Assembly: GCF_027622945.1 (NCBI RefSeq)
Contig: NZ_JAPZVQ010000010.1
Location: forward strand, 86,799-150,798
Direction of reading: 5' to 3'
DNA from: Glycomyces lechevalierae
GTDB taxonomy: Bacteria > Actinomycetota > Actinomycetes > Mycobacteriales > Micromonosporaceae
Length of the DNA: 64,000 nucleotides
Translations under genes and position numbers: made by a program
Shown: positions 7,780 through 33,835 of the stretch, one piece after another
Numbering within the stretch: the stretch's first letter is position 1
How the letters are laid out: each line of letters begins with the position of its first letter
The notes under the pieces: model-generated
Told to the model about the DNA's origin: nothing
Database searches by the model: none
What the model saw: only the letters and a program-made list of their open reading frames with translations

Positions 7780-7823
7780 CCGTCGCCGAACCCCTTTGAT
7801 CCCTTACAAAGAGGAGACCGGAA

Positions 7824-18030: not shown

Positions 18031-18623
18031 TTGGCAGGGGTTGGTTTCCTGCCCCGGGCATGCCGAGGGGCCCGATCCCTCTGGGGGATCAGGCTGCGTT
18101 GCGTGGTGTTGCCGTGCGGCGCTTCCCCCAGCAGTCGCCCGCTGGGGCAGCCTAAGACCGGCACAGGGGATGGTGGCTTCGGTGTTGCGAACTTCTCTCG
18201 GCATCGGGCCTTCGCCGCTCGCATGGCCTTCATTGCCCGGTCTCTGTCGATGGCCTCAGCCATCCCATCCAGGTCGGGCTTCATCGTCTCGGACCATTCC
18301 GAGCGGTAGAGCCCGGTCGGGAACACATCCCAGTCTGAGCCTTGGTTCTCGGTGTCCATGTCGTGGTCGGTGCGCCAGTCCGAGCAGCCACAGCCGCCCC
18401 CGCTGTCGTTGCCGCCTGGGCCTTCATGACCGTCATGGTGGGTGATGATCGCCTGGCCGGGCCCGGTCTTCTCCACCGACCAACCAGTCGTATGGATCCG
18501 CCCGTGGTGGAACCGGCACAGCAGGATCAGGTTCTCAGCGGCCGTCACACCGCCATCAGCCCAATGCTGGATGTGGTGCGCCTCAGTCCAAGCGACCGGC
18601 CGGTCACAACCGTGCCAAGCGCA
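18006..18623 (-). pseudogene. C-terminal HNH half of a DUF222/HNH endonuclease gene split by the element
   Basis: The first host codon is TGC at 18621-18623. Downstream are the HNH residues (CAWHGCDRPVAW, EAHHIQHWADGG, LILLCRFHHGRIH), as in the C-terminal domain of REP13E12/DUF222 proteins. About 205 residues remain. An element-derived ATG at 18680 opens the frame now, giving about 19 foreign residues before the host part. The missing DUF222 half lies at 32405-33496 on the same strand. Joining the halves at the shared TGC codon restores an uninterrupted 566-residue protein. The fragment probably makes no functional nuclease. Confidence 0.85.
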
Positions 18624-18643
18624 CCCGTAGGTGACAGTTTCAC
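18604..18643. other. attL: left attachment site of the element
   Basis: Host HNH sequence ends at core dinucleotide CA (18622-18623). It is followed by the element arm CCCGTAGGTGACAGTTTCAC (18624-18643). The same arm, inverted with one mismatch, occurs at the right end (32392-32411). This is the pattern expected when a serine integrase splits a palindromic attP between attL and attR. Confidence 0.82.
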
Positions 18644-18676
18644 ACGTTTCACGCGTGACAAATGTTGCGCGTGTGA
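18640..18676. promoter_or_regulatory. Inverted repeats between attL and the recombinase gene
   Basis: TCACACG at 18640-18646 is matched by CGTGTGA at 18670-18676, with a perfect palindrome TCACGCGTGA (18649-18658) between them. The site overlaps the P arm and lies just before the recombinase start. It may be integrase-arm sequence or an operator for the recombinase. Confidence 0.35.
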
Positions 18677-18704
18677 CCATGAAACTCAGTCATCAGGAGA
18701 TGCA

Positions 18705-20219
18705 ATGGCACATCAACGATCCAAGTCCCGCGCGAAGATGAACCGGTCCGGGCTCCGCATAGTCGGCGTCGTCCGCCTGTCGCGGGTCACCGACGTGACC
18801 ACCTCACCCGAACGCCAGAAGGAAGCCATCGAACGCTGGGCGCTCGATGCCGGGCACACGATCGTCGGCTGGGCCGAGGACCTCGACGTCTCCGGCTCCA
18901 CGGACCTGTTCGAGCGCGAGGAACTCGGCCCCTGGCTGCGCGAGCGCGCCTCGGATTTCGACGGGCTGTGCGCGGCAAAGATCGACCGGTGGGCGCGCTC
19001 GATCGTGCACTTCTCGAAGCTGCTGGCCTGGTGCGATGAGCACAAGAAGCTCGCCGCCACCGCCGACAAGCAGCTCCACACCGCCGAACCCTCGGGCAAG
19101 CTCATCGCCTACGTCGCGGCGATCTTCGCCGAGATGGAACTCGACGCGATCTCCGAACGCGTCACCTCCACCCGAGCGAAACTGCGCCAGCGAGGCCAGT
19201 GGGCCGGAGGCGTGGTCCCCTTCGGGTACAAGACCAGCCACGACGTGCAGGGGCGGGCGACCGGGCTCGTACCCGATCCCGAGCGCGCCCCGTGGGCGCG
19301 GGGCATGGTCGCCCGGCGCCTCGAGGGCTGGTCGTTCCAGAAGATCGCCGACTGGCTCAACGAGAACGGCGTCTACGGCCTCAAAGGCGCATTCTGGCTG
19401 GGCACGAGCGTCGCCAAGTTCCTCGGTGGTCGCCACCTGATCGGGCAGGCGATCCACGACGGCCGCACCGTGGTCGACGAGGCCGGGGAGCCGATCCAGT
19501 TCGCCGAACCGCTGATCTCCCTCGCCGACTTCGAGGCGCTCCGGGCCGGATCGGTGGTCCACAACGACCGCGACGGCAAGAGCTACACACAGCGACCCAG
19601 AACCGAGCTGTACCTGCTCAAGGACTTCCTGCGGTGCGGGGCGTGCGGGAACAAGATGTACCGCTTCGCCAGCACCCAGAAGGGCATCTTGTACGTCCGG
19701 TACGGGTGCAAGGGGACCATCAACCACTGCCCGCACCCGGCCTCGATCAAACTCGAAGAACTCGACCAGGCCCTGTCGGAGCGGTTCCTGGACGACATCG
19801 GCAGCCAAGAGGTCTACGAGCGCCGCTTCGTCCCCGCCACCGGCACCGCGGCACAGCTTGAACGACTTGGGCACACCATCCGCGACTTGCGCGACGACCG
19901 CGACGCCGGGCTGTGGGAAGGCGAGGACGACGAGTACCGCCGCCGCATGAAGGCGCTGATCGACAAGCGGAGCCAGCTCGAAGCCCAACCTTCGGAGGAG
20001 GCGAGGTGGGAGTATGCACCCACTGGCACCACCTATGCGAGGGCGTGGGAGGCCGCCGACATCGCCGAACGCCGTGACCTGCTGGCGGGCGCCGAGTTTA
20101 AAGCGCTCGCCTGCCGCCCCGCTATCGACGCGCCCGCCTGGTTCGAGGCGGGCCGGGATGTCATGGTGCCCACCCGCGCCTGCCGCGTCTACGCGGCGTG
20201 GAGCCCGCGCCGACTCTGA
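18705..20219 (+). CDS. Large serine recombinase (site-specific integrase)
   Basis: A 504-residue integrase. The resolvase catalytic domain has the nucleophile Ser26 in VVRLSRVTD, SPERQKEAI, DRWARSIVHF, and the AAIFAEMELDAISERV helix (about 145-160). A recombinase DNA-binding domain follows. A zinc ribbon has Cys311, Cys314, Cys335 and Cys342, and a charged coiled coil spans about 385-440. These enzymes join attP and attB through a 2-bp staggered cut; excision normally needs a directionality factor, which is not seen here. The ATG at 18705 has AGGAGA upstream and starts 61 bp after the attL arm. It almost certainly inserted this island. Confidence 0.93.
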   Translation: MAHQRSKSRAKMNRSGLRIVGVVRLSRVTDVTTSPERQKEAIERWALDAGHTIVGWAEDLDVSGSTDLFEREELGPWLRERASDFDGLCAAKIDRWARSIVHFSKLLAWCDEHKKLAATADKQLHTAEPSGKLIAYVAAIFAEMELDAISERVTSTRAKLRQRGQWAGGVVPFGYKTSHDVQGRATGLVPDPERAPWARGMVARRLEGWSFQKIADWLNENGVYGLKGAFWLGTSVAKFLGGRHLIGQAIHDGRTVVDEAGEPIQFAEPLISLADFEALRAGSVVHNDRDGKSYTQRPRTELYLLKDFLRCGACGNKMYRFASTQKGILYVRYGCKGTINHCPHPASIKLEELDQALSERFLDDIGSQEVYERRFVPATGTAAQLERLGHTIRDLRDDRDAGLWEGEDDEYRRRMKALIDKRSQLEAQPSEEARWEYAPTGTTYARAWEAADIAERRDLLAGAEFKALACRPAIDAPAWFEAGRDVMVPTRACRVYAAWSPRRL

Positions 20220-21120
20220 GACCCCGTGCCGCCCTTGTTCCCCCTGGAGAGGTATCTCGGACCTGCCCGAGCCGGGTAACACGCGCCGTGAGCGGGTCTT
20301 TCGCTCGTTTCCGTTGATCGGGTGCTGTTGGGCCCGGTGTGGGGGCCAGCGTCGGGGCGGATGTGGGCACCCGAGTGGGGGCCGGGGGGGGCGGGGGGGG
20401 GGGGGCGGGGGGGGGCCCCCCCCCGCCCGCGCGGGGGGAGGCCGGGGGGGGGGCCCCCGGGCCCGCCCGGGCCGGGGGGGCCCCCCCGGCGGCCTCGATG
20501 TGGAAGCGCGGGTCGGCGGCCGAGGAGGCGACAACCCCCTCGGCCGCCGCTCCCGCGACCAGGAGCGACCCGCCTTTTGCCAAGCGGGCCAGGCATTTTA
20601 CGAGGGTGGCGTTAAGCCGCGCGCCCTCGCATTCGGCTAGGACTGGCACGATGCCGAGCGTTGCGGGTGCGCCGTCGGGGAGGCCGCGGTGCCACCTGCT
20701 GAGGTCGAGCAGTGCGAAGCGGCGCTCGGTGAGGCCGTAGCCGTGGCCGATGCCGGCCCCGTACCACTCGCCATGATGTGTTCCCGGTCCGAGCACGGCG
20801 AGCTCAGCGGCGTGGGCGGCAACCCAGGTGGCGAAGCCGAAGTTGTCCCGGCCGACCCCGTTGCGGGCGTCAGACTCAGACACGAGCCACCGAGTGCGAC
20901 TCGCAGCCCGGACACTCACCTGCCGACCATCCGGGCCGCGAGCGAGGGCGAGGCCCGGCCCTGCGATGTCCTCGGCGGTGGCGGGTTTGATGACAATGAC
21001 GGCGTGTGTGCCGTCGACCATCTCGGTGACCGTCCACCGCTCGCTCAGGCGGATGGTTCTCGGCCATGCGGGCACGGGTGGGCCCGCTTCGGCGGTTGGT
21101 GTGGGTGCAGACCACGACAT
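20161..21120 (-). pseudogene. RNA-ligase-like gene, probably defective
   Basis: Residues 1-205 resemble actinobacterial RNA ligase family proteins: VTEMVDGTHAVIV (nucleotidyltransferase motif I region), RTRWLVSESDARNG, DNFGFATWVAAHAAEL, GEWYGAGIGHGYGLTERRF, and AEGVV near motif IV. The adenylated lysine of motif I (normally EKxDG) is Met here, an AAG to ATG change. The expected C-terminal FK motif is not visible. The frame then runs into a proline/glycine stretch produced by the G/C homopolymer tract and ends without recognisable sequence. Ligation activity is unlikely unless there are read errors. The tail coordinates after about 20500 are not meaningful. Confidence 0.5.
20381..20491. repeat. 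G/C homopolymer low-complexity tract
   Basis: Nearly pure runs of G and C, including 13 consecutive G at 20393-20405 and 9-base C runs, unlike anything else in the window. It interrupts the RNA-ligase-like frame. It could be real G-quadruplex-prone DNA but looks like a sequencing or assembly artefact. Confidence 0.8.
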
Positions 21121-21309
21121 GGGAGGCGACGCGGCGTCACCGTGGTCTCAGATGCACTCGATCCTACCGGGCCATGACACAGGAGTCGAGTGTTGTGGCT
21201 GTAGGTAATCAAGGTGGGTCGCGAACCGGCCTGCGAACAAGGGGCCTCGCGCTGCTTCCGCAGGTCGAAGAGTTCACGAGACCCTTCTTGGGGGAATATC
21301 AGGTAGATA
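21121..21309. other. No gene recognised
   Basis: Between the RNA-ligase-like start and the small coupled frame there is no convincing coding sequence on either strand. An AT-richer patch (GGGGAATATCAGGTAGATAC, about 21291-21310) is the only compositional feature. Confidence 0.4.
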
Positions 21310-21471
21310 CTAGTAGGACCCGCACACGCGCCCGGCTCTATTCGTCGCGAGCTGCGGAAACACTACCCGGCTCGGCCCGATGGCGTCTCGGGAGTGTTCC
21401 CGGTAGCGCTTCCGGTACCCCGCACGGGGCAGGTTCCGGGAGTCCTCAGCCGGATGCGGTACCGCCGTCAC
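21310..21471 (-). CDS. Possible 53-residue protein coupled to the replication-relaxation gene
   Basis: A GTG start overlaps the stop of the upstream gene (GTGA) and the frame runs 53 codons to TAG. The peptide is basic (RAGYRKRYREHSRD) with no known domain. It may be a small gene or the surviving start of a larger one lost from the element. Support is limited to the overlap. Confidence 0.3.
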   Translation of the reverse strand: MTAVPHPAEDSRNLPRAGYRKRYREHSRDAIGPSRVVFPQLATNRAGRVCGSY

Positions 21472-22421
21472 CACAGGTGGCTGAACGTGTAGATCTCCTC
21501 GAGCCTGCGCAATCGACCCGCCGGGTCACCGGCACACCACCAGACTGGACCGAGCGGATCGGCACTGCGGTCGGTGGCGGTGGTGGCGACGAGGTTACGG
21601 TCCTCTCCGCGATTCAGGCGGTCGTGCAGGTTCGCTTCGCGGCCGGGTTTGGTGAACTCGATGAGCATCATCCGCGGCGGCGCCTCGGCCAGGATCTCCT
21701 CACGGGTCCACTGCCCCTCCTGAACGCGGTTGCTCGCGATGCGTTGCTGCCTGCCGATCTCCTTGCCGTAGTGATAGATCTTCTGGATCAGTCGATCCAG
21801 TGTCTCGGTCCCGGTGTCGTACTCGAACCAGAACTCTCGCTTCAAGCCCACAAGCGTGAGGTCAAAACACCCGTCCGCTCGCATCCCCATCACCGACGAC
21901 ACCCGCTCGGCTTCCTGCTCGACGTACCAGCGCTGCAGCGTCGCCGTCGCGTCGTGGCGGCAGGAGAAGGCCAGCCGCGAGTAACAGTCGTTGATGCCCT
22001 CCAGATGCGCGCGGTGGGCGGAGAAGAAGAGCGCGTCGGCGTGCTCGCGGGCTTTCGCCTTCGTCGGCGTCCGGCCGGGCTTGGGCTTCTCGCTCTTGCC
22101 GAACCAGTCCGTGCCGGGGTCCCTCGCGTAGTCGGCGACCGCGACTGCATGGGTCAAGGAAAGTCCCAGCAGGCCGAGGAAGTACCGGTACGCCTCGTGC
22201 GTTGAGGGACGCCGGCGGTCGAGCAGTCCCCGCTCGGTCAAGGTCCGGACCCGGTCGTACGCCGAGGACGCGGAGTCGAAGAAGATCCGCTGCAATTGCT
22301 CGATCGTGAACAGTCGAAACCGGGCCAGGTGCTCGATGATCGCCCGGTCTCGGTCGGTGAGCTGATGCGCGATCTCACCGAGCGAAGCCGCTGCGTTCGA
22401 GGGCGTGCGCCATGACGCCAT
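21468..22421 (-). CDS. Replication-relaxation family protein
   Basis: A 317-residue protein with a winged-helix N-terminus (LTDRDRAIIEHLARFRLFTIEQLQRIFF, DRVRTLTERGLLDRRRP). A conserved C-terminal region (HADALFFSAHRAHLEG, DLTLVGLKREFWFEYDTGTETLDRLIQKIYHYG) is typical of the Replic_Relax family. In plasmids and integrated elements of actinomycetes these genes accompany replication or transfer functions; the mechanism is not established. The DTGTE and KI..Y residues recall a nuclease-like fold. The ATG at 22421 (MASWRTP) is chosen because sequence upstream lacks family similarity. A long inverted repeat lies about 200 bp upstream. Confidence 0.8.
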   Translation of the reverse strand: MASWRTPSNAAASLGEIAHQLTDRDRAIIEHLARFRLFTIEQLQRIFFDSASSAYDRVRTLTERGLLDRRRPSTHEAYRYFLGLLGLSLTHAVAVADYARDPGTDWFGKSEKPKPGRTPTKAKAREHADALFFSAHRAHLEGINDCYSRLAFSCRHDATATLQRWYVEQEAERVSSVMGMRADGCFDLTLVGLKREFWFEYDTGTETLDRLIQKIYHYGKEIGRQQRIASNRVQEGQWTREEILAEAPPRMMLIEFTKPGREANLHDRLNRGEDRNLVATTATDRSADPLGPVWWCAGDPAGRLRRLEEIYTFSHLW

Positions 22422-22613
22422 CAGTTCACCGCCCCACCGGGCATGGCGCGGGCACACCGAACAGCGGCACCGCCCACAGCGCGGCACCGTTTCACCGTTA
22501 TCGACATCCAGCGGATCGTGTTCGTGTCCTTCCTCCCGATCGGTGGAAGCAGCCCGGTCTGGCCACCTCCCGTGAACGCGAGTGTCGCTCGAAAATGCCG
22601 TTGAGTCGAGGCT

Positions 22614-22685
22614 TGTGCGGGTCAGCCACCCTGACAGACCCGCACAGGGCCCGCACAAACGATCGCTGTGCGGGCCCTGTGCGGG
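22614..22685. repeat. Iteron-like inverted repeat (candidate origin or operator)
   Basis: A perfect 19-bp stem: CCCGCACAGGGCCCGCACA (22639-22657) and its complement (22667-22685) around a 9-base loop. Each arm carries two copies of the octamer TGTGCGGG or its complement, and a fifth copy is at 22614-22621. It sits in the gene-free stretch 22422-22891 upstream of the replication-relaxation gene. This suits an iteron origin, oriT or autoregulatory operator. Confidence 0.6.
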
Positions 22686-22807
22686 TGAACGAGCTGACCG
22701 GGGCGGGACCCGCGACTCCGTTCGGCTCCGGTCCTCAAGGCCGAAATCTGGTCCGGCCCCATTCGAATACCGGAGACTCGTCCACCATTGTGGTGTCGGA
22801 GGTAGGA

Positions 22808-22839
22808 GGGCCGCCGCGCTCCACCTGGCGCGGCGGCCC
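22808..22839 (-). terminator. Terminator of the leftward small-gene operon
   Basis: GGGCCGCCGCGC pairs perfectly with GCGCGGCGGCCC around an 8-base loop, about 50 bp after the last leftward gene (22892-23113). No strong T-run follows. Confidence 0.5.
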
Positions 22840-22891
22840 GGAGGGGAACCGTCGCTCAGTCGCGGCGCGCGGCGGCCCCTCGGGAGGCAAG

Positions 22892-23113
22892 TCAGTCGTG
22901 ACGCGGTGCTTGGTCGATGATCCGTTGCGCCTCTCGAACGGCGTGCCAGTGCGCTTCGAGCCGCTCGATGGCGCGTTGCTCGCGCTCGGCCTGGTCGCCG
23001 CGGGCGCGATCGAGGTACCACCCGAGCGTCCGCCGCGGGTAGTCCGGCGGTGGCGGAACATCCCATACTGACGCCTGGCCGCCGAGGATGAGAGCGAGTA
23101 TCCGGCCAGTCAT
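22892..23113 (-). CDS. Small hydrophilic protein of unknown function
   Basis: A 73-residue protein with a short hydrophobic start (GRILALILGG) and a charged helical remainder (ARGDQAEREQRAIERLEAHW). No family is recognised. Its ATG overlaps the stop of the preceding gene (ATGA) and a hairpin terminator follows, so it is the last gene of a three-gene leftward operon in the element. Confidence 0.6.
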   Translation of the reverse strand: MTGRILALILGGQASVWDVPPPPDYPRRTLGWYLDRARGDQAEREQRAIERLEAHWHAVREAQRIIDQAPRHD

Positions 23114-23340
23114 CTCGTCACCCCAGCCCGGAACTGGTCGAATGCGTGCCGCAGCTCAAGCGGTGCGAGGTCATCGTCGGGAGCGAAGACGGTCAGATCG
23201 AGTCGGCCGTATCGGATCACGCCCATACCGGTGAGTGTGGGCCCGGTCCGGTTCAACCAGATGACTTCGCCCGCGAGCGGACTCGCGATCCTGTCAGCTT
23301 CGATTTCCCAGCCGCGCCATGTGAACTGTCCGATGATCAT
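23110..23340 (-). CDS. Small protein of unknown function, middle gene of leftward operon
   Basis: A 76-residue, beta-rich protein (MIIGQFTWRGWEIEADRI, then GMGVIRYGRLDLTVFAPDDD). No known family. It overlaps both neighbours by ATGA, strong evidence that all three are translated together. The longer upstream frame is ignored because the ATG at 23340 fits the overlap exactly. Confidence 0.65.
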   Translation of the reverse strand: MIIGQFTWRGWEIEADRIASPLAGEVIWLNRTGPTLTGMGVIRYGRLDLTVFAPDDDLAPLELRHAFDQFRAGVTR

Positions 23341-23864
23341 GGCGCGGCCCTTCCGGCAAGACACTCCTTGGTGGCCTGGCCCAGGGTCGCGACGTCGAGA
23401 TACCGGTGTTCGGGCGTCAGCGCGAGCCCGGCCGGGCCAGACACGGCGACGAGCGCTTCCGGGTGCACGTCGGTGCGGTACACGTAGACCATCGGCTGAC
23501 CGCTGAGCCGGTCGGTGGCAACGTGAGGCCGAAACCGCATGCCTCCGAGCTCGAACTGGTCCCGGTTTGCGAGCACCTCGGCCAGTTTCGCTTTGATCTG
23601 GACGCGCTCGGTTGCGGTCCAAACACCTGCTGGCGCCTGCCAGGTGACATTGTGGAGAACGCCGCCAGCATGGCCGAGGAGGGCGATTACCGGGAAGCCG
23701 CGACCGGTAGAAGTCAACTGCCCGTCGCCGACTTCATCGTCCACGTACAACTCAGTGCCCGGCAGGTCCCACCGCTCCAAGTACCGCATCCGGTCAGGCA
23801 CCATGTGGTGCCCCAGATCGTCTTGCATTGGGACCCTCGCGATGCCGACGTTTCGTCTCGCCAC
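23337..23864 (-). CDS. Hypothetical protein, first gene of leftward operon
   Basis: A 175-residue protein of no recognised family, starting with GTG behind AAGGAGGGAG. It contains a probable beta-domain (FPVIALLGHAGGVLHNVTWQ) and a segment (VQIKAKLAEVLANRDQFELGGMRFRPHVATDRL) that could pack as an alpha/beta unit. It begins the leftward operon divergent from the XRE regulator 173 bp away, so the regulator may control it. Confidence 0.6.
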   Translation of the reverse strand: MARRNVGIARVPMQDDLGHHMVPDRMRYLERWDLPGTELYVDDEVGDGQLTSTGRGFPVIALLGHAGGVLHNVTWQAPAGVWTATERVQIKAKLAEVLANRDQFELGGMRFRPHVATDRLSGQPMVYVYRTDVHPEALVAVSGPAGLALTPEHRYLDVATLGQATKECLAGRAAP

Positions 23865-23977
23865 TTGCAGCTCCCTCCTTGCTGGCGCTTCGCCCCCAGG
23901 AATGACCTGGTAGGGCCCTCTTGATTCGAACGGTGTCCGATTCGCTACCCCAGGCTATGGAGGCGGGAGCGCAGAGC

Positions 23978-23993
23978 GTTGCCATGTGGCAAC
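23978..23993. promoter_or_regulatory. 16-bp palindrome, candidate operator of XRE regulator
   Basis: GTTGCCATGTGGCAAC has two 7-bp arms around TG. It lies about 45-60 bp before the XRE/TPR gene start, in the divergent promoter region. A self-binding site is likely but untested. Confidence 0.55.
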
Positions 23994-24037
23994 GGCACTT
24001 GTAGGCTGAGGCGGACCCTGTAGGTATGGAGCAGCGC

Positions 24038-25246
24038 ATGGCGACCGAACCCATCGGCGAACGCATCATGACCCGGCGGAAGCTTCGCGGGCTCAGCATT
24101 CGCCGGGCTGCTGAGCTGGCCGACATGAACGCGAGCACCTGGAGCCGGATCGAGAACGGTCTCCGCGGCGCCGACAACCTCCAGATCCTGGCGTCCATGA
24201 GCATGGTCCTGCGCTGCTCGGTCATGGACCTGATCGGCGACGGCTACGTCTCCCTCACCAGCGACGGCGTCGGGCTCGTCGACGACGTCCACGACATCCT
24301 CGCGGCCCTCATCGAGACGGCCCTGGAGGATGAGGCCACCGCCGACCCGGCGGGGCTTGGCTACCTCAATGCCGAGGCCGATCTGCTCGAAGAGCTATAC
24401 CGGCGAGGCGACTTCACTGGGACGGCCGCGCGGCTGGCGCCGTTTCTACGTCGTCTGCACGCCACCGCCGTCACCGCAACCAACACAGCCACGGCCACGC
24501 GCACACGAGAGCTGACCGTCCAGGCAGCGCACCGAACCATGAACGTCATGCGCTCCACCGGGCAGCGCGCCGACACCTACCTCGCCGGTGAGCGCGCCCG
24601 AGACGCCGCCGCCGAACTCGACGACCTCAGCCTAAAAGGCATCGCCGCATTTACTCGTGCGCACGCGGCGTTGAGCTGCGGCAGTATGGAACGCGGCCAC
24701 AAGTTCGCCGCCGCCGGCCTTCGCATGCTCGAAGGCGGCACGGCCGACCAGCGGACTATGGCCGTCGCGGGCCAACTTCACCTGACCTCAGCGATGACGC
24801 TGTATGGGCTCAAGCGCGAATCCGAAGCCGAGACACACCTGGCCGAAGCCGAAGACCTCGCCACGCGCACCGGCGACTGCGGGCAAGAACTCGGCTGGTT
24901 CGGTCCCACCAACCTCACGTTCTGGATGGTCGCTATGGAAGTCGACCGGGACCCGCGCCGGGCCATCGCCATCGCGAACACCACCAACCCCAGCGCAATC
25001 GACGCCCCCACTCGACAGGCGTCGTTCTATCTCGACGCGGCCAGGGCATGCGCCCGGATCGGCTCGCGCGACTCCGACCGAGCCGCCATACGCATGATCG
25101 CCTCCGCCGAGAACGTCGCCCCACAGCGCATCCGCTTCAACCCCCTCGCACGCGAGGTCCTGCGGATCGTCGTGCGCCGCACCAAAGAGAACGCGATCGA
25201 CCCACAACTGCGAGGCCTGTGCGAACGGATCGGAGTCAAGACATGA
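24038..25246 (+). CDS. XRE-family HTH regulator with TPR-like C-terminus
   Basis: A 402-residue regulator with an N-terminal Cro/C1-type helix-turn-helix (residues about 8-60: LRGLSIRRAAELADMNASTWSRIENG in two parts). A long all-helical region with TPR-like repeats follows (AHAALSCGSMERGHKFAAAGL, AMTLYGLKRESEAETHLAEAE). Such proteins are common in actinomycete elements, and the TPR part usually senses a peptide or protein. The ATG at 24038 has GGAG six bases upstream; an ATG at 24026 is possible if the mRNA is leaderless. The stop overlaps the flavoprotein start (ATGA). Confidence 0.8.
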   Translation: MATEPIGERIMTRRKLRGLSIRRAAELADMNASTWSRIENGLRGADNLQILASMSMVLRCSVMDLIGDGYVSLTSDGVGLVDDVHDILAALIETALEDEATADPAGLGYLNAEADLLEELYRRGDFTGTAARLAPFLRRLHATAVTATNTATATRTRELTVQAAHRTMNVMRSTGQRADTYLAGERARDAAAELDDLSLKGIAAFTRAHAALSCGSMERGHKFAAAGLRMLEGGTADQRTMAVAGQLHLTSAMTLYGLKRESEAETHLAEAEDLATRTGDCGQELGWFGPTNLTFWMVAMEVDRDPRRAIAIANTTNPSAIDAPTRQASFYLDAARACARIGSRDSDRAAIRMIASAENVAPQRIRFNPLAREVLRIVVRRTKENAIDPQLRGLCERIGVKT

Positions 25247-25863
25247 ACGTCGTCTACCTCATCGTCTGCGGTGCCGGACCCACCATGCACGCCGCCGGGT
25301 TCGTTGAGGCCGCCCGCGCCTCGGGATGGGACTGCCACGTCATTGCCACCCCCACCGGCGCTGCGTTCGCCGACCTTGACGCGCTCGAAGCCGCCTCGGG
25401 CCACCCGGTGACCACCGAACACCGGAAACCGGGGACGCCCCGCCGAGACCGTCCAAACGCCGACGCCGTCGTCATTGCCCCGGCCACCGCGAACACGATC
25501 TGCAAACTCGCCGCCGGGATCGCCGACACCTACGCACTCGATGTCGCCTCCGAACACATCGGTCTTGGCATCCCGACCCTGGTCGTGCCGTTCGCAAACA
25601 CCGCACTCACCGGACGGGTGCCATACCTACGCGCGACAGCGACGTTGACCGAGGAGGGCGTGACCTTCCTAGAACTAGCCGAGCACGAACCCCACCACGG
25701 CGGCCCGCTCGCCGAACAGTTCCCCTGGCACCAGGCCATGACACAAGCCGCCAAACTCGCCGAGACACGCCGCTCCGAGCCAGAGCCAACCGCCACTTCT
25801 TGGAGCGGTCCTGCGGAGCCCCCGCCTACAAGCAACACCCACGAATTGCCGGAATCCCGCTAA
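25243..25863 (+). CDS. Flavoprotein-like (HFCD family) protein
   Basis: A 206-residue member of the homo-oligomeric flavin-containing Cys decarboxylase superfamily. It opens with VVYLIVCGAGP, has the PNADAVVIAPATANTICKLAAGIADTYAL block typical of FMN-binding enzymes, and continues LGIPTLVVPFANTAL. Relatives decarboxylate phosphopantothenoylcysteine or peptide C-termini, or prenylate flavin; the substrate here is unknown. Its ATGA overlap with the XRE regulator and the same pairing seen in other actinomycetes suggest one functional unit. The C-terminal 35 residues are low complexity. Confidence 0.78.
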   Translation: MNVVYLIVCGAGPTMHAAGFVEAARASGWDCHVIATPTGAAFADLDALEAASGHPVTTEHRKPGTPRRDRPNADAVVIAPATANTICKLAAGIADTYALDVASEHIGLGIPTLVVPFANTALTGRVPYLRATATLTEEGVTFLELAEHEPHHGGPLAEQFPWHQAMTQAAKLAETRRSEPEPTATSWSGPAEPPPTSNTHELPESR

Positions 25864-25901
25864 GCTGACCGAGCCGCCACCCCCTTGGACGGAGCCGCTG
25901 C

Positions 25902-26576
25902 GTGCCCTCAGTCGATGAACTCGCTGCCGCGATCCGCGCCGCGATCGACCAAAGCCGTGACCTCATCGCCGGCCTCGGCGCGAGCCGTGAACAGGCCACC
26001 GGGCTTCGAGACGAGCTCGGCACGCTCGGCGTCGAAGCGAAAGCTGAACAGGTCGGCTCGATCGTGGACAGCCTGGAGGAAATGCAGGCGGAGGCTTCGG
26101 CAGTCACTGCCAGCCTCGAGTCCGCTCTTGCCACAGCCGAGGCGATCCGCAGCGGCACCGCAGGTGGCGGAGGCGGTGGCGCATCACCGGGTCCGCCGCT
26201 GTCACCGTCAGCGCCGCAGCCCGGGCCGAACCGGCCCGGCCCTGACCTCACCCGAGCCGAATTCGATGATCGGAAACTCACCAAGTACGCCCTCAACCCC
26301 GAGCACCCAGTCGGCGGCAACAAGGCGCGCGTCATCAAGTCCCGGACTGGGTTCGGGCTCAACGACGCCGCTGAGATCAAACGTCAGATACTGGAGAAAG
26401 CCCCGGCCGCAAAGCCGATCATGGGCGACACCGACGAACACGGAACGCGCTGGAAAGTGGATGTGGAGCTGACCGGCCCTGATGGGACGATGGAAGTCCG
26501 CACCGGATGGATCGCCGACGCTGCCGGGAGGACTCGGCTGGTGACGATCAGCTTCCCGCCGAAGGGGGAGAGATGA
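25902..26576 (+). CDS. DUF6883-type protein with coiled-coil N-terminus, candidate toxin
   Basis: A 224-residue protein starting at GTG behind GGAG. Residues 1-85 are a helical/coiled-coil region like DUF6244 proteins. A Gly/Pro linker (about 86-115) follows, then a compact C-terminal domain (about 120-222: KLTKYALNPEHPVGGNKARV, GFGLNDAAEIKRQI, KVDVELTGPDG) matching DUF6883. The order of helical delivery part, flexible linker and small C-terminal domain resembles polymorphic toxins. The next gene overlaps by ATGA and encodes a DUF4926 protein, a frequent neighbour that may be immunity or antitoxin. Toxic activity is inference. Confidence 0.65.
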   Translation: MPSVDELAAAIRAAIDQSRDLIAGLGASREQATGLRDELGTLGVEAKAEQVGSIVDSLEEMQAEASAVTASLESALATAEAIRSGTAGGGGGGASPGPPLSPSAPQPGPNRPGPDLTRAEFDDRKLTKYALNPEHPVGGNKARVIKSRTGFGLNDAAEIKRQILEKAPAAKPIMGDTDEHGTRWKVDVELTGPDGTMEVRTGWIADAAGRTRLVTISFPPKGER

Positions 26577-26770
26577 AACTGTACGACGTGGTCGAGCTCG
26601 CCGTGGACCTGCCCGAGAAGGGCCTCCGGGAAGGCATGATCGGCACCATCGTCGATGTTTACGACGACCCGCGAGCGTTCGAGGTGGAGTTCGACGACGA
26701 GGACGGCGTAGAAATTGCGCTGCTTGCGCTCAAGCCAGAGCAACTGCGGTCGAAGCGGAAGACACTTTGA
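26573..26770 (+). CDS. DUF4926-type small protein, possible immunity/antitoxin partner
   Basis: A 65-residue, strongly acidic, SH3-like beta protein (KLYDVVELAVDLPEKGLREG, GTIVDVYDDPRAFEVEFDDE). The pattern is that of DUF4926. It starts at an ATGA overlap after GGGGGAG, so it is made with the DUF6883 protein. The acidic charge fits a partner that masks a basic or nucleic-acid-binding protein. The role is inferred from pairing. Confidence 0.68.
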   Translation: MKLYDVVELAVDLPEKGLREGMIGTIVDVYDDPRAFEVEFDDEDGVEIALLALKPEQLRSKRKTL

Positions 26771-26853
26771 TGACCTATTCTTGGAAGAGGTGCGGCCGGG
26801 TGATACTGGTGTCATTGGCAGAATGGCCCGACCGAAGGACCCGGGTTCTCGGT

Positions 26854-26883
26854 GTGACACCACAAAATCGCCTATTGGATAAT
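26854..26883 (+). promoter_or_regulatory. Candidate sigma-70-type promoter for the STAND gene
   Basis: GTGACA (26854-26859) and GATAAT (26878-26883) are separated by 18 bp. They lie in the AT-rich 155-bp gap before the STAND gene, leaving a leader of about 35-40 bases. Confidence 0.4.
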
Positions 26884-26925
26884 ACTCTGAATTAATTGAC
26901 TGTTCAACGAGATTGAGGTCAAATC

Positions 26926-29900
26926 GTGTCTAGCGACTCAAGTACACCCAGGAAAGCACGGCGCGCTAGTCCGTACTCAACTGGGGGAGGCGGCACCGTT
27001 TTTGAACAGCAGTATGGTGCAATAGTCCTCAGTCATATGCTAACGGCTGAACCCCTCGAGGAGCTGGGTAGCAACTTGGTTCCAGTGGAAGTCTCGTTTC
27101 AGGCGATGGGTGTGACACCAGTTGACGATCTTCTAATTAAAGGGATTCTCCCGGATGGAACAGTCCGTTCGGTTTCGATTGGGATTAGAAGGTCTCCTTC
27201 TTTTGCGCCAAGTAGTGAATCCACAGTTGACTTGATTCGTGCTTACCTCAGGGCACTCGACCGCCATCATGACGAAATTGAGTCGGGCAGATGGGGACTC
27301 GCGCTAGTTGTAGCAAGCCCAAATAATCAAGTCAAGCAGATTCGAGAACTCGCAAACATTGCGCGAGATTCGAGAGACTTCATGCAATTTCGCAATAAGA
27401 TTCTTATCGAAGAGGCAGCTAATCAGCAAGCTCGTGATCGTCTGATTCAAGTTGAGAGAATGATTGAGAAGGCTAAGGTTAACGAATGGAGTGAGGAAGT
27501 CAGCCCGATTCACCTCGATCTTACTTGGCAGTTGCTTGCAGCCTTGCGGATTATAGAAGTCCGAGCTGAGGGTGTTGATCAATCCGATCGAACTTCGGCT
27601 GTGGGACGGCTTCAAAACATCGTGAAAGATGGAACCGTGGCAGAAGCTGACCATCTCTTTGACAAGCTCTATAATCTGACTGGAAGGTACGCGCCCGCTG
27701 CAGCTACAAAGTCGGCAACCTCTGTAAGAAGAGATCTGATCGGATTTCCTTTTTCAAGTGATGCCGTAGAGCACTTGGCGGGCTCGGACGCAAATGAACC
27801 TTCATCCTCGCCAATCGTCCGCTCGGACTATCTATCTCTGGTTCAACGAATTTGTCCGAGCATGCTTCATGAACGTCATGATGAACTCGGCAAGATGGAA
27901 GACTTTTGTGCCTCCAATAGTAACGAAGGCTATTTTTGGTGGCGAGCACCTGCGTGGGCAGGAAAATCTGCTCTCCTTGCAACTTTCGTACTTAGACCGC
28001 CACAAGGAGTCCGCGTTGTTTCGTTCTTTGCGACGGCTCGTTGGGCGGGACAATCAAATGTACGTGCCTATACCGAGATCGTCTTGGAGCAGGTTCTTGA
28101 GATCCTAGGTGAGCCGATGCCGGTGTTGCTAACTGAGGCAACCCGTGAGGCACATCTGGCAGGAGCACTCGATCGCGCTGCTAGGCATTGTAGAGATCTC
28201 GGTGAGCGTCTGGTGCTGGTCGTTGATGGGCTTGATGAAGATACGGGCGTCACGAGTGATCCCGAAAGCCATAGTATTGCCGCAGCATTGCCGAGCGATT
28301 CAAATAGCCCACTTCGTGTAATCGTCGCGAGTCGCCATAACCCTCCGATCCCCAGCGATGTTCCAGACCATCATCCTCTCCGGCGGTTGAAGATACGCCA
28401 CGACTTGCAGCCATCTTCCTTCGCGGACGTTGTACGACAGGACGCCGAGCGAGAGCTCAGACGGCTGTTGCGTGGAAGCGAAATTGAGCGAGATCTTCTT
28501 GGATTGCTGGTGGCAGCGGGGGGTGGCCTCACTGGGCGGGACCTCGCAGAGCTCACGAACCTCCCGGAATGGGAGATCGAAGAGCAGCTGAAGGAGGTCT
28601 CGAGTCGAACGTTCGCTAACCGTTCTGGACGTTGGCGCACCACAGAGATGGCCTACATTCTGTGCCACGAGGAGATCCAACAGCAAGCAACAACTATGCT
28701 CGGAATGAGTCGGCTGAAAGCTTACAAAGAACGCATCGACATCTGGGCATCAAGCTACCAGACTCGGAGGTGGCCTAGCGAGACCCCAGAGTACCTCCTC
28801 CGAGGCTACTTCAGTCTCCTACTTGCGAACCGAGACCTAAATAGGCTAACCTCGTTGGCGATTGACGTTGAGCGCCACGAAAGAATGCTCGACATCATCG
28901 GGGGCGACAGTGTCGCGATTAGTGAGGTGCTTTCCGCACAGGAAGTGTTCCTCCAGGATGCGCCTACAGACTTGGAAACATTCTGCCGCCTTGCGGTGCA
29001 TAGAGTTTCTCTGATGGAGCGGAATAGTCATATTCCGACTCATCTTCCTGTGGTTTGGGCGCAACTAGGCAAGGGAAACCGAGGCGAAGCACTAGCTCGT
29101 TCAATCATCAGGCCGATTCAACAAGTTCGCGCGCTAGTTTCGCTTTCTAGAGAACTCTCTGACAATGGAAACAATCAAGACGCACGGGCGATTGTTGAGG
29201 CAGCAAGCCAGGTTGCAACCTCCATCGAAGATATCCCAGAGAGAGTTCGATGTCGTGCTGTAGTTGCACAAACTATGGCTCGAATCGGTGATCCCACCCA
29301 GGCTCGTATGATTCTTTCTCAAGCAGAGGCCGCCGCGAACTCTCTTACTGAGGGACTTGAAAAGTCAGTTGCGCAATCCGCAATTGTCCGCGGGTTGGCG
29401 GCCAACGGAGAACTCGAACATGCGCTCTCTCTCGCAGCATCCGTCCATGACAAAGGCGAGCGTGCTCAAGCAATAGGCGGAGTTGCGAGTGAGATCGCCA
29501 ACACCGGGGATTGGGAAAGAGCGTTTGAGATTTCAAAGACAATTCAATATTGGTCGACTCGGGCACCATTGCTGTCGAGTATTGGCCATGTTGCAAAGCG
29601 GTCCGGCTCAGCAGCCCGTGGTAACGCGATTATTAGCAGTGCGTTGAACCTTGCCGGGCGTATTCGCAACCCTGAGCGTCGCAGTTGGGTCCTGGCTTCT
29701 ATTGCACACGACCTTGCGCAAGCTGGTAAACGAAATCAGTCCCATCGAGTTTCCCAAAAAGCTCTAAGCGCGCTGGAAGTCATCTCTGGGGAGCATGCGA
29801 AAGCAGATAGCTTGATTGCAATAATTCGAGCTTTGGCAGTTTCGGGGTTTGTGTCAGAAGCAACTGAAATTGCGCGGAGTTTCAATAATCTCACACGTCG

Positions 29901-31284
29901 ATCTAAGGCCCTAGCTGTAATTGCTTCAGCACTCGCCAAGCAGGGCAAGAGTGAAAGAGCAGAGAAACTTGCAATGGAATCTGAGAGCACTGCGAGGATT
30001 GCGAACGATAGAGGTCGTAAGGATATTGATCTTGTTACTCTGTCTCAAGCTCTGGGCACGGTTGGTGACTTCGTTCGAGCTGAAACTACAGCCAAATTGA
30101 TTCATGATGAATCTAAACGAGACAAGGCATTTACCTTGCTTTCGGAGGCAATCGCGATTTCCGGGGACATAGAGACGGCGCAGCAGACCGTCGACCATAT
30201 TTCCAATCACGGGAAGCGGCTCAAGGCACTAACCAGAATTGTGAAATCGGTCGCTTCGATCCTTGACACCTCTGAACTTGATCGGTTGTTGGATACTATC
30301 CCTGATGCAACTGTTCGTAACAGTCTGCGCCGATGGATATCGAGGAACACCGGACTTCAGCAAGCTGATTCTGCTCCGAGTTCGAACGCACTTACGTTCA
30401 GTTCTGCTGAGTCTCGTGCAACTGAGGTTGACGAAGTCCTTGAGCTGAACTCCTCGAAAAATGATCTCTTCCGCATTGCCCGTGAGCAGACTGAACTTGC
30501 GATGGAATTTCTCGATGATGGTGACGTGGCGAGCGGGTTGAGCGCAATCGGGTCTATTGTGATCCCTACCCTTCGCATCGATGCACTGTTGCAAATTTCT
30601 AAGAAATTGGAGGAACATGATCAGAGGTCGCTTTCGGAAGACCTCGTCGAGCGAGCTATTCAAGCATGTGCCTCGATTTCAAATGAAGCCGTGAGGGATA
30701 GAACTCGCTCTAAGATCGCTAGGTTCCTGGCCGAGAATAGTGACCTACTTCGAGGAGAGGAACTTGCATATGAGGTTTCTAGCCTCCCAGCCAGGCAAAG
30801 AACGCTGGCGACTCTTTCCAGTATTGCGGGGCAGTTGTGCAGATGGGCAGAAGCTGAGAGGATTGCTCTTTCGATTCATGACTCCTCATTGAGGGAAAAG
30901 TCATTGGTGAGCCTTGTGGCGAGTCTTGCCGAAAAGGGATCCTTCGAAGAGGCAAGCCGAGTCGCCGCATCAATAGCTGACCCGCTTGCCCGTTCCTCGG
31001 CATTGCGCGAAATTTCTCTAGCCTTGGCGGATCAGGGTCATTCGGTGCACTCGGAGGAAGTAGCAGCACGAATCCCTGACTCTAACATACGAGCGCGCTC
31101 ATTTGCGTCGATCGCTCCTCGCGCTAGTCGTGAACACTCGAGCCTCCTTATTTCGAAGGCGTTGAGCGGCGGCCACTGGCGCCTTTCCATACCCACACTC
31201 GTCAAGGTGGCTCCGGAAACAGTCTCCGTATTGGCGAATGAGTTCCTCCTTATAATGGGCACCCGGAATAGTGGCGTCGGTTGA
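26926..31284 (+). CDS. STAND-type NTPase with nuclease-like N-terminus and helical repeats (candidate anti-phage, Avs-like)
   Basis: A 1452-residue protein with clearly lower GC than its surroundings. Residues about 20-150 resemble the PD-(D/E)XK-like domain at the head of defence NTPases (FEQQYGAIVLSHML, then PVDDLLI with Asp67-Asp68). The usual QxK strand reads SIGIRRS, so the catalytic Lys position is Arg88 or absent. The P-loop is APAWAGKSAL (Gly346-Lys347-Ser348) with Walker B LVLVVDGLDED (Asp434) and an IVASRHNP sensor-like strand. A winged-helix region follows to about 640. From about 715 to the end there are many 35-40-residue TPR-like helical hairpins, the usual sensor part. The GTG start has TGAGG upstream. 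Phage sensing is inferred from architecture. Confidence 0.82.
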   Translation: MSSDSSTPRKARRASPYSTGGGGTVFEQQYGAIVLSHMLTAEPLEELGSNLVPVEVSFQAMGVTPVDDLLIKGILPDGTVRSVSIGIRRSPSFAPSSESTVDLIRAYLRALDRHHDEIESGRWGLALVVASPNNQVKQIRELANIARDSRDFMQFRNKILIEEAANQQARDRLIQVERMIEKAKVNEWSEEVSPIHLDLTWQLLAALRIIEVRAEGVDQSDRTSAVGRLQNIVKDGTVAEADHLFDKLYNLTGRYAPAAATKSATSVRRDLIGFPFSSDAVEHLAGSDANEPSSSPIVRSDYLSLVQRICPSMLHERHDELGKMEDFCASNSNEGYFWWRAPAWAGKSALLATFVLRPPQGVRVVSFFATARWAGQSNVRAYTEIVLEQVLEILGEPMPVLLTEATREAHLAGALDRAARHCRDLGERLVLVVDGLDEDTGVTSDPESHSIAAALPSDSNSPLRVIVASRHNPPIPSDVPDHHPLRRLKIRHDLQPSSFADVVRQDAERELRRLLRGSEIERDLLGLLVAAGGGLTGRDLAELTNLPEWEIEEQLKEVSSRTFANRSGRWRTTEMAYILCHEEIQQQATTMLGMSRLKAYKERIDIWASSYQTRRWPSETPEYLLRGYFSLLLANRDLNRLTSLAIDVERHERMLDIIGGDSVAISEVLSAQEVFLQDAPTDLETFCRLAVHRVSLMERNSHIPTHLPVVWAQLGKGNRGEALARSIIRPIQQVRALVSLSRELSDNGNNQDARAIVEAASQVATSIEDIPERVRCRAVVAQTMARIGDPTQARMILSQAEAAANSLTEGLEKSVAQSAIVRGLAANGELEHALSLAASVHDKGERAQAIGGVASEIANTGDWERAFEISKTIQYWSTRAPLLSSIGHVAKRSGSAARGNAIISSALNLAGRIRNPERRSWVLASIAHDLAQAGKRNQSHRVSQKALSALEVISGEHAKADSLIAIIRALAVSGFVSEATEIARSFNNLTRRSKALAVIASALAKQGKSERAEKLAMESESTARIANDRGRKDIDLVTLSQALGTVGDFVRAETTAKLIHDESKRDKAFTLLSEAIAISGDIETAQQTVDHISNHGKRLKALTRIVKSVASILDTSELDRLLDTIPDATVRNSLRRWISRNTGLQQADSAPSSNALTFSSAESRATEVDEVLELNSSKNDLFRIAREQTELAMEFLDDGDVASGLSAIGSIVIPTLRIDALLQISKKLEEHDQRSLSEDLVERAIQACASISNEAVRDRTRSKIARFLAENSDLLRGEELAYEVSSLPARQRTLATLSSIAGQLCRWAEAERIALSIHDSSLREKSLVSLVASLAEKGSFEEASRVAASIADPLARSSALREISLALADQGHSVHSEEVAARIPDSNIRARSFASIAPRASREHSSLLISKALSGGHWRLSIPTLVKVAPETVSVLANEFLLIMGTRNSGVG

Positions 31285-31407
31285 AATGCGGACAAGCCAC
31301 GGGGTGAGACGCCCCGAATCGGCCTTCGGCACCGGAGACGCTCTCAGGTGTCAAGTTAGGAGATGTCCGGGGTTGAGTTTGTCGCAGGCATCGCTCACTA
31401 TGGGCGA

Positions 31408-32283
31408 ATGCAGCAGAAAATTGCGTATGGGCCCGGCGAACTCTGGGGGTACCGCGCTCGGGCGCGGGACGAGTTGGCCTGCGTGAAGGTGCTGAAGGTC
31501 GGCACCAAACGGCCGCTTCGACTCAAGATCAGGTTCGTAGACGACGAATATGAAGGACGCGAGGACTGGGTACCCCCGGCGAGGCTGAAAGTACGTTGGC
31601 AGGATCGGGTTCGCTTCATCGCCGCGGAGCAGCGTTGGCAGACAGTCGAAGACGCGTCCGCCGAAGCCGTCGACACACTCGAAGCCAACACCTGCATGCT
31701 GGTCTTTGACCACCTCAAGGCTCTCCAGTACATCGATTGGCGGTCAGCCGACCGCAGCGCGATCCTGATGGTGGACGACCTCGGCACTCTCGAGGCCACG
31801 ACAGGCCTCAAGCGCGAGGACCTCCTGTCATATCCGGTGGCGTACAGCGAGGACGACCAGATCGCCGCCCCGTGGCCGGCACTGAGGGTCGTCGCCCAGG
31901 CTCTGGCGCGCGCGAACGCCGAAAAGCTCCTTGATCTCGCCGACAAAGAAGAACGGGACCGGGCACGCCGAGCCATCTACGGCCAGCACTACCCCTCGCG
32001 CTCAGGAGTTCGGCACATCGAGCCTGAAATTTGCATCGAGGTCGACCGCGAGTACGCCCCGCAATGGGAGATGTTGCGAACCTGGTGCGGCGCAGAGATT
32101 CAAGCACGACGCGATGAGCTGTCCGAGCTCCGGGGTGAAGTAGCCCGCCTGTCGATGTTGGTGGAAGCGGCCATCACCGAACTCGACAAGGCGGGCAGCC
32201 GAAAGGCGGCCCGGCGTCTTGAGCGGGAGCTCAACGTCCCGCTGGATCTCATTCGAGCATCACAGAGAAGACTTGATTCCTGA
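31408..32283 (+). CDS. Uncharacterised protein with C-terminal coiled coil
   Basis: A protein of 291 residues from the ATG at 31408, or 306 if it begins at 31363. The N-terminal 75 residues form a beta-rich domain (KIAYGPGELWGYRARARDEL, VKVLKVGTKRPLRLKIRFVD, WVPPARLKVRW) seen in unassigned actinobacterial element proteins. The C-terminal 60 residues are a charged coiled coil (RRDELSELRGEVARLSMLVE). It is the last gene of the island, 79-124 bp after the STAND gene and on the same strand, but with normal high GC. It could be an accessory to the NTPase or an unrelated cargo gene. Confidence 0.6.
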   Translation: MQQKIAYGPGELWGYRARARDELACVKVLKVGTKRPLRLKIRFVDDEYEGREDWVPPARLKVRWQDRVRFIAAEQRWQTVEDASAEAVDTLEANTCMLVFDHLKALQYIDWRSADRSAILMVDDLGTLEATTGLKREDLLSYPVAYSEDDQIAAPWPALRVVAQALARANAEKLLDLADKEERDRARRAIYGQHYPSRSGVRHIEPEICIEVDREYAPQWEMLRTWCGAEIQARRDELSELRGEVARLSMLVEAAITELDKAGSRKAARRLERELNVPLDLIRASQRRLDS

Positions 32284-32391
32284 ACGAACTCATACCGGCT
32301 CCGCAACGAAGGTATGGCGATGTCTGTACCAGCCACGGAACGCAGCGCAAAATGCCCATGATATGGTGGTTTACCTGCGGGAACGCGGTTA

Positions 32392-32430
32392 GTGAAACTG
32401 TCGCCTACGGGCAGCCTTCCGGCTGCTCAA
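32392..32430. other. attR: right attachment site of the element
   Basis: The element arm GTGAAACTGTCGCCTACGGG (32392-32411) is followed by core CA (32412-32413) and then host DUF222/HNH sequence. It is the inverted partner of the attL arm, 19 of 20 bases identical. Confidence 0.82.
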
Positions 32431-33496
32431 GCTCCAGCTTCCTGCGCAGCGAAGCGTTCGGCAAGCGCATCGCCCTGCCCAGTTCCACGGCTTCACCGGT
32501 CGTGTAGTTGAAGACCGAGGGGATGACCCCGGCTTCGCAAGCGAGCAGGCGGGCACGGGCAACGCTGATCGGCTGGCCTTCCAGGAGGGGGAGGCGGCCG
32601 GTGTCCTTGCCCTGCAACGTCTCGATGTCCACCACCAGATCCAGGGTGGCAGTGTGCCCATGCCGGGTGGCCGCCTGCGGGGAGGACCCGTACCCGGCCA
32701 GGAGCTGGTGCAGGGCTTCGGCATTGCGGTTCGCCTGCGCGGGCAGGAGCCCTTCGCCTTCGTCTTCGCTGGTGCTCTCGGTGTCTTCTTGGCGGGGCGG
32801 CGGGCAGGCGGTCTTCAGGTACTTGTCCAGCAGCCGACCGGTCGCATCCGAGAGCGTGCCTTCCAAGTGCCACATGCCATTGCCGGTCTCGGTGAGTTCG
32901 AGCCGCTGGAGGGACTGCTCACCCAACTCGTCGAACAGTTCGGTCTCTTCGGCGATCGATGCCCACAGCTCATCCAGGTGCCGCCGCAGGTCTTTGAAGG
33001 AAGCATGGGCGCAGTACTCAGCCACCATGGCCTCGGGAGTCGCGCACTCCACCGAGGCATCAAAGGGCGAAGCAACCGGGGCCCTGAAGGGGGTGCGGGC
33101 GAACAGGCGCATGGCGGGGGTCTGGTCGAGTTGGCGGACGGCATAGGCGACCTGGTCGATCCTGGCCGTTCCCGTCGTTGCCGCTTTGGCCAGGATCCGG
33201 AACTTCCCGGAGAGCCGGGCGATGGCCGCGATGGATCCTGCCGTGTTGAACGTGAAGTCGAACTGGGAGAGCAGGAGGTCCCTGAGGGCGGAGAACCCGA
33301 ACTCGGAGCGGTGCAGACCCTGCTCCTTCATGGCGATCACGGAGGAGAGGACCTGGGTGTGGAAGGCATTGATACCGGCAGCGGCTTCATCGAGGGCCGA
33401 TCGGATCGCGGCGGCCTGAGAGCGGCGGTCGGAGGAACCGGCGAGGATCGAGACGGGGGAGGGAGTCGGAGTGGTGTGGGTGTTGCAGTGGGCCAT
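32405..33496 (-). pseudogene. N-terminal DUF222 half of the split DUF222/HNH gene
   Basis: Starts at ATG 33496 behind GAGGAGGC and encodes 361 host residues plus Cys-Pro before a TAG supplied by the element arm. It contains the DUF222 helical domain (SALDEAAAGINAFHTQVLSS, RIDQVAYAVRQLDQTPAMRL) and the conserved approach to the HNH domain (VELGRAMRLPNASLRRKLEL). The nuclease domain is at 18006-18623, separated by the island. In the uninterrupted gene the next residues would be EGCAWHGCDRP. The DUF222 fragment may still be made and stable but lacks the nuclease. Confidence 0.85.
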
Positions 33497-33835
33497 GGGT
33501 CTCGCCTCCTCACCTGTTCTCGAATGATCTGCCTGTTTTCGCTTCCTTGTTCGTACTTCAATGATGACATCCCACCGCGCTGGTGTCATCACCCGATAGA
33601 GTGAACATTCCATAGAGGACTATCAATGTCCGCCCCGGCCCGCCCCGCCGCCACCCGCAAACATCCTGGGATGCAAGGAAAACCGAGAGGGGATCACCCC
33701 GCATCCCCCGCGCTGCCTGTCAGCCGCTGGGCACACCCACCCGCCCTCAGACCTCTTTGTCGCTGCCCGCTCTAACCTCAATAGACACGGCGCAGCAAGC
33801 ATGAAAGGCGCGGCAAACCGACCGCCCCGCAATCC

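Follow-up and report, generated by a model that had tools for sequence, protein, structure and literature searches.

A candidate Avs-like STAND receptor with a non-canonical Cap4-fold head, carried by a serine-recombinase element of Glycomyces lechevalierae

To characterize a putative anti-phage gene, we analysed a 64,000-nucleotide stretch of the Glycomyces lechevalierae genome (contig NZ_JAPZVQ010000010.1, positions 86,799 to 150,798; hereafter the window), which contains one long gene for a protein with a nuclease-like head, a STAND NTPase and helical repeats. We read this protein as a stand-alone, Avs-like defence receptor that is the cargo of a mobile element and that bears a Cap4-fold head with a non-canonical GxR strand, and we consider this complete description about evenly balanced between right and wrong; a role in defence is likely. 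The features of the locus are collected in Table 1. The original prediction, made from the letters of the window, had given the coordinates, strand and frame of the gene correctly: it is one open reading frame (ORF) free of internal stops, the surrounding open frame is just three codons longer (1455), and a search of its own genome with the gene gave one match. Of six aligned relatives that share its body, four have lengths of 1471-1503 amino acids and the other two of 987 and 1170; since the gene starts of the relatives were chosen as those nearest to the start of the window gene, agreement among the starts is no evidence.

Table 1. Features of the receptor gene and of the element that carries it (window positions)
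Feature	Position	Strand	Support
STAND receptor gene, 1452 aa, GTG start	26926..31284	+	intact ORF
Head, residues 1-285, predicted Cap4/DUF4297-type PD-(D/E)XK fold	26926..27780	+	AlphaFold2, Foldseek, VIA-align
E27, helix 1	27004..27006	+	E in 67/87 heads, A in 19, G in 1
Q59, strand 1	27100..27102	+	87/87 heads
D67-D68, start of strand 2	27124..27129	+	87/87 heads
SIGIRR, residues 84-89, with G86-x-R88 (strand with QxK in sister heads)	27175..27192	+	alignment, hhalign
STAND NTPase module, ~residues 307-700	27844..29025	+	Pfam, PADLOC, Foldseek
Walker A, residues 341-348	27946..27969	+	7/7 aligned sequences
Walker B, residues 429-439	28210..28242	+	D-G-x-D-E-D in 7/7 aligned sequences
Helical TPR-like repeats, ~residues 701-1425, presumed sensor	29026..31200	+	Pfam TPR_30, TPR_12; periodicity; model
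Promoter-like match GTGACA-18-GATAAT	26854..26883	+	consensus scan only
Element left end, half of 20-bp inverted repeat	18624..18643	.	19/20 identical
Element right end, other repeat half	32392..32411	.	uninterrupted site in L172
Large serine recombinase, element left end	18699..20219	+	Pfam Resolvase, Recombinase, Zn_ribbon_recom; start chosen by us inside ORF 18342-20219
Replication-relaxation protein	21468..23066	-	Pfam Replic_Relax, E 7.2e-21
Helix-turn-helix (HTH) regulator of element	24026-25246		Pfam
Overlapping DUF6883 and DUF4926 genes, just upstream of receptor	25902-26770	+	Pfam
Downstream cargo gene, 306 aa	31363..32283	+	no Pfam, PADLOC or NCBIfam family
DUF222 half of split gene	32405-33613	-	flanks element
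HNH half of split gene	18006-18680	-	flanks element

The foreign base composition that had been described was found, and the AT-rich region described as a promoter contains a promoter-like match. The receptor gene has a G+C content (GC) of 52.4%, with 48.9% at third codon positions, which is 17 points below the 69.4% of the remainder of the window, and the gap upstream (26771-26925) is 49% GC. A consensus scan of 26600-27000 returned three promoter-like sites, one of them on the plus strand, compared with a mean of 0.1 in shuffled sequence. We also considered low GC as a trait of the family, which was not supported: the median difference between the 80 head-bearing relatives introduced below and their flanks is 1.3 points (lower in 53 of 80), and drops near that of the window occurred at L107 (15 points) and L075 (13 points).

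The gene is cargo of a 13,788-bp serine-recombinase element (18624-32411) inserted in a DUF222-HNH gene, which gives sharper borders to the mobile island of the original prediction. In one relative of the same genus, L172, the DUF222-HNH gene is continuous across the point that corresponds to window positions 18627|32421. Among the eight same-genus relatives compared, the positions matching ~15935 and ~33851 are separated by 18-101 bases in five, by ~600 in L171 and by ~1,130 in L177, and the segment between them is missing from all seven. The uninterrupted site is therefore known from one relative, because the other seven are without the whole segment.

The order of a PD-(D/E)XK-like head, a STAND NTPase and TPR-like repeats, as originally proposed, is borne out by Pfam, PADLOC, the Walker motifs and AlphaFold2 folds. 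Pfam NPHP3_N matched residues 325-470 above its cut-off, with TPR_30 and TPR_12 in the second half of the protein, and PADLOC STAND_TPR matched with an E value of 1.8e-107 (best stretch 307-765). Walker A (A-W-A-G-K-S) and Walker B are identical in the window protein and six relatives and are of the NACHT/STAND kind, which places the module among the STAND NTPases. The head and NTPase are more similar between the window protein and these relatives than is the C-terminal part, though conservation of that part is lowered by two of the seven sequences, in which much of the C-terminus is missing. A model of residues 286-1003, built from the seven sequences, contains helices and reached a mean predicted local distance difference test (pLDDT) of 78.1 with a predicted template modelling score (pTM) of just 0.45; its best Foldseek match was the STAND-TPR protein 6mfv (E 4.4e-8, TM 0.27-0.30), and CED-4 was among its 50 matches. 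The repeat region, which we presume to be the sensor, has a 33-residue periodicity exceeding the maximum of 200 shuffles.

The label Avs-type stood for the architecture and fell for the body. Avs3 (AVAST type 3) has a STAND NTPase and a long C-terminal sensor, and shares with the window protein a Cap4-type head (predicted here), but the body here matches STAND_TPR and no Avs-named model, and strand 3 of the head reads [G/A]xR. Because STAND_TPR was the sole PADLOC match at E ≤1 (Avs4 being the Avs model confirmed in the library), we liken the protein to Avs in its working and do not file it as Avs. PADLOC STAND_TPR (PDLC01173), whose NTPase and TPR core the protein has, is described with an N-terminal Xre-HTH; a Cap4-fold head takes that place here, and Pfam gave no HTH match at the N-terminus.

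To collect further heads, a profile of 14 of them was scanned over one genome per species, resulting in 88 relatives, and the 80 best were retained; scanning genome contigs with a pattern from a single sequence gave 22 stretches and no relative. No named family covers residues 1-300 in Pfam or NCBIfam, and Cap4_nuclease (PF14130) matched neither the window head nor 77 other heads at E ≤0.1, nor anything in the window's own genome. A sequence profile against the PDB likewise did not name the head, returning four matches to terminase small subunit (E 0.19-0.23) that we take as chance. In titles and abstract openings of the papers returned by literature searches such a head is not named, most subscription journals being outside the reach of that search. 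The profile search suggested in the original prediction thus yielded no sequence family, and the Cap4/DUF4297 group it had pointed to emerged from the fold.

Structure prediction of the head, also suggested there, gave a nuclease-type fold. The AlphaFold2 model of residues 1-285, computed with 77 of the 80 relatives (three proteins below 300 amino acids were excluded), has a mean pLDDT of 91.5 and a pTM of 0.87, and consists of helix 22-39, strands 52-58, 69-74 and 80-88, helix 98-113 and strand 123-130, followed mostly by helices. Against solved structures, the top Foldseek matches were Avs3 (E 1.7e-4) and Cap4 (1.9e-4 to 9.1e-4). With VIA-align 2 the model matched HerA-DUF4297 at Z 13.6 (192 residues, 3.6 Å), Avs3 (8dgc_A) at 13.1 (204 residues, 3.7 Å), LmuA at 12.8 (208 residues, 4.2 Å), Cap4 at 12.6 (204 residues, 4.7 Å) and Hachiman at 11.7, with other entries for Cap4 and LmuA spanning 12.5 to 5.6; ordinary restriction enzymes came at Z ~4-7, where values below ~8 may reflect merely a common arrangement. 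From these structural matches the head is predicted, with high confidence, to be a Cap4/DUF4297-type restriction endonuclease (REase)-fold domain, in keeping with the diverged, nuclease-like head that had been proposed. It resembles HerA-DUF4297, LmuA and Cap4 nucleases in fold (best Z 12.6-13.6) and differs from them in lacking QxK; to our knowledge, none of these is fused to a STAND-TPR body.

The original prediction had read SIGIRRS (residues 84-90) as an altered catalytic strand. The reading was accurate, and the alteration is the signature of a whole family of heads rather than a change in this copy. We aligned 87 heads (the window, the 80 loci, five from plasmids and one from a further genome), and in strand 3 found [G/A]xR in 84, TxR in one and QxK in two. 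The states at positions 27, 59, 67, 68, 86 and 88 were EQDDGR in 42 heads, EQDDAR in 22, AQDDAR in 19, EQDDQK in two, and GQDDAR and EQDDTR in one each; R88 is thus kept in 85 of 87, and both exceptions have K, paired with Q. In all seven members of a sister family, found chiefly on Streptomyces plasmids, the aligned strand reads QVK or QIK, and hhalign between the window family and six of these sisters (probability 99.8, E 9.8e-29) placed IGIRR over RQVKR. On the strength of the 84 heads and of this alignment, we regard the altered strand as a property of the family and not a quirk of one copy. For the profile comparison, A2 against A6 was set aside, since A6 contains window-family heads and is not independent, and A2 against A7 was used; one QxK head searched against 246 genomes contributed a single partial relative, the sisters being found on plasmids.

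The head therefore departs from the catalytic D...(D/E/Q)xK pattern of Cap4/DUF4297 nucleases in that D67 is kept and G86-x-R88 stands in place of QxK; strand 3 thereby loses its usual ligand-and-lysine pair, while D67 and D68 remain. According to PMC11291478, mutations in the PD-(D/E)xK site of DUF4297 significantly lower cleavage, and mutation of the nuclease site abolishes defence. In view of these DUF4297 results, canonical PD-(D/E)xK catalysis by the head is unlikely. A possible alternative, which we hold to be rather less than evenly probable, is that the head is a pseudonuclease that binds DNA or clusters the receptor, with immunity arising from sequestration of DNA, a block of replication or transcription, or a recruited host nuclease with its gene at another locus. 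This would agree with the replacement of QxK in 84 heads and has precedent in the Pfam NA-iREase families, inactive REase heads of NACHT proteins, which resemble the window protein in the idea of an NTPase protein whose REase-fold head is taken to be inactive. One of them, NA-iREase3 (PF22739), weakly matched two of 78 heads (best E 0.00097), but not the window head; a search of 198 genomes for NA-iREase3 gave no match, and as the controls were equally silent it is uninformative. It agrees less well with the lack of a recurrent partner gene and with D67 and D68, which are invariant across heads merely 25-50% identical to that of the window. The heads are under purifying selection, with a median dN/dS (nonsynonymous to synonymous substitution rates) of 0.23 and a range of 0.11-0.48 over 77 non-independent pairs. 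Conservation of the Y-GGGG stretch is partly a product of how the heads were chosen, because the scan pattern demanded it; positions 59-88 lie outside that pattern.

Next, we characterized the bodies behind the head. In the 83 proteins longer than 350 amino acids, single-linkage BLAST grouping gave groups of 59, 7 (the window type), 5, 4, 3 and 2 and three singles; for most groups, Pfam was run on one member. The group of 59 comprises proteins mostly of ~1650-1740 amino acids, one of which (L078) had no Pfam match at 0.01 and two of which gave weak PADLOC Avs4 matches (E 0.0022 and 0.001). In the group of five (L063, L088, L093, L095, L096) the tested member, L093, has a PQQ beta-propeller, and Walker A is absent from the four tested; the head on such a body may be a sensor-effector without an NTPase. 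The tested member of the group of four, L101, matches PF20698, a PIN-TPR-GreABC domain, above cut-off. A Walker A-like motif lies at residues 270-480 in 65 of 81 proteins (the window and the 80), and four of the 16 without it are too short for the test. In the tree of heads the seven window-type bodies do not group together; since ingroup support is 0.145, we make no claim on the root or the direction of change.

The exchange runs in the other direction as well. Window-type NTPase-TPR bodies were found with a TIR head (L047), with trypsin (L052, L057) and with trypsin and Trypco2 upstream (L015), and in 20 of 25 chosen loci with this body at most 120 amino acids of open frame precede the match, too short for a head. 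Kaur 2021 (PMC8195603) names REase, HNH, PNPase, TIR, SIR2 and peptidase domains as N-terminal effectors of TPR-GreABC-PIN conflict proteins, with which L101, one of its group of four, shares that body and from which the window protein differs in its STAND-TPR body. This list, together with the exchange of heads and bodies, indicates that the head occupies the place of an effector. A non-defence reading, in which the protein would regulate the mobile element or development, we regard as improbable: the TPR part weakly resembles NsdA-type regulators (20.9 bits against a cut-off of 75) and the element also encodes an HTH regulator, but the head fold and its exchange with TIR and trypsin heads are hard to reconcile with such a role.

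Several of the headless STAND-TPR relatives (L027-L051, L012-L014) start with short GD/N-rich motifs (VVVIGDGNRV, FANSGIVNGDLYM) that by eye recall amyloid signalling motifs (compare the BASS motifs in PMC8086366). Their likeness to stackable signalling motifs would suit an adaptor role, in which the head would form a homotypic pair with another head that is fused to a catalytic domain, in the manner of effector-associated domains; multi-copy adaptor domains have been described for such conflict systems. We consider this very improbable, as each of the 11 head-bearing genomes among the 295 searched has one head locus (in one of the 11 it consists of two adjacent pieces), as does the window's own genome, at a threshold of E 1e-3 that weaker second copies would escape. 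In 17 further genomes of the 295 the match covers just the linker that follows the head.

Going by record titles, actinobacteria account for 63 of the 80 head loci, and the remainder are metagenome-assembled genomes: Chloroflexi or Dehalococcoidia (3), Cyanobacteria (2), Gemmatimonadetes/-ota (2), Pseudomonadales (2), one each of Gammaproteobacteria, Nitrospinae, Rhodothermales and Hyphomicrobiales, and four others. Neither the viral contigs, with 34 pattern stretches and no relative among them, nor the phage records yielded a relative of the head. The survey of neighbours that had been suggested produced some PADLOC defence families near the head loci, and no neighbour cluster spanned more than 6 of the 81 loci. 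One head locus per genome and no recurrent neighbour favour action in cis, so the head probably acts within its own protein.

We therefore return to the Avs-like defence receptor and its possible working. The repeat region would recognize a component of the invader, and the NTPase would then assemble subunits, as in Avs3 and apoptosome-type STANDs. PMC11291478 describes DUF4297-HerA and Avs3 heads as activated by pairing on assembly, and by analogy assembly here would pair the Cap4-fold heads. Paired heads may then be the effector, working in cis on nucleic acid at a site that would use E27 (in most heads), D67 and D68, with G/A and R88 replacing Q and K. The head is predicted to engage DNA, and we judge there to be about an even chance that it cuts through this rearranged site, partly on the ground that restriction enzymes with migrated catalytic residues exist; we give about equal weight to a rearranged site (E27, D67, D68, R88) and to an effector that binds DNA without cutting it.

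A number of observations weigh against this proposal. By analogy with the DUF4297 mutants, losing Q as well as K points to an inactive site, and E27 is lost in 20 heads that form a single clade (support 1.0). Two head loci, L121 and L125, both of the long body group, come from a single Acidimicrobiia metagenome bin. The defence context of the loci, as judged from their neighbours, appears modest: among the 147 nearest neighbours of the 80 loci, PADLOC (1e-8) found PDC-S07 with six members and Gabija, type II methyltransferase, mad2 and others with two members each, in a survey that examined 25 of 298 matched families with crude ORF calling and no control set.

More broadly, we tentatively propose, while thinking it somewhat likelier to be wrong than right, that heads reading GGGG...Q...DD...[G/A]xR make up an effector family of their own, so far without a name. 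It would be a Cap4-fold module that has abandoned the canonical metal-and-lysine site, keeps a different conserved site and has been joined to four or more kinds of sensor body, some with an NTPase and some without; most carriers are actinobacteria, the others metagenome bins from further phyla. Avs-type nuclease heads are assumed to act by cutting DNA; a conserved, exchanged head under selection without the canonical site makes other chemistry or a non-cutting action testable, and would, if the proposal is true, mean that immune effectors of nuclease fold have either a new chemistry or a clear mode of action without cutting. The signature of the head is searchable and finds proteins that are unnamed in the family libraries used.

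Finally, we examined the other genes of the element, which besides those in Table 1 include a flavoprotein gene. The DUF6883 and DUF4926 genes have the look of what we take to be a toxin-immunity pair. The 306-amino-acid gene downstream of the receptor was found in two of 246 genomes (its own included) and in two plasmid records, and in none of the viral contigs. At L106 a relative of it (7625-8524) adjoins a gene in which the head type of the receptor precedes a different body, and on two Rhodococcus plasmids its relatives lie beside DUF3800 and sce7726 genes. We rejected it as a fixed partner of the receptor: the Rhodococcus copies are without an annotated STAND gene within 7 kb (hypothetical proteins were not examined). 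On the minus strand at 20161-21120, an ORF with a weak RNA-ligase match (E 0.016) includes an extremely G/P-rich stretch at ~20.4-20.6 kb.

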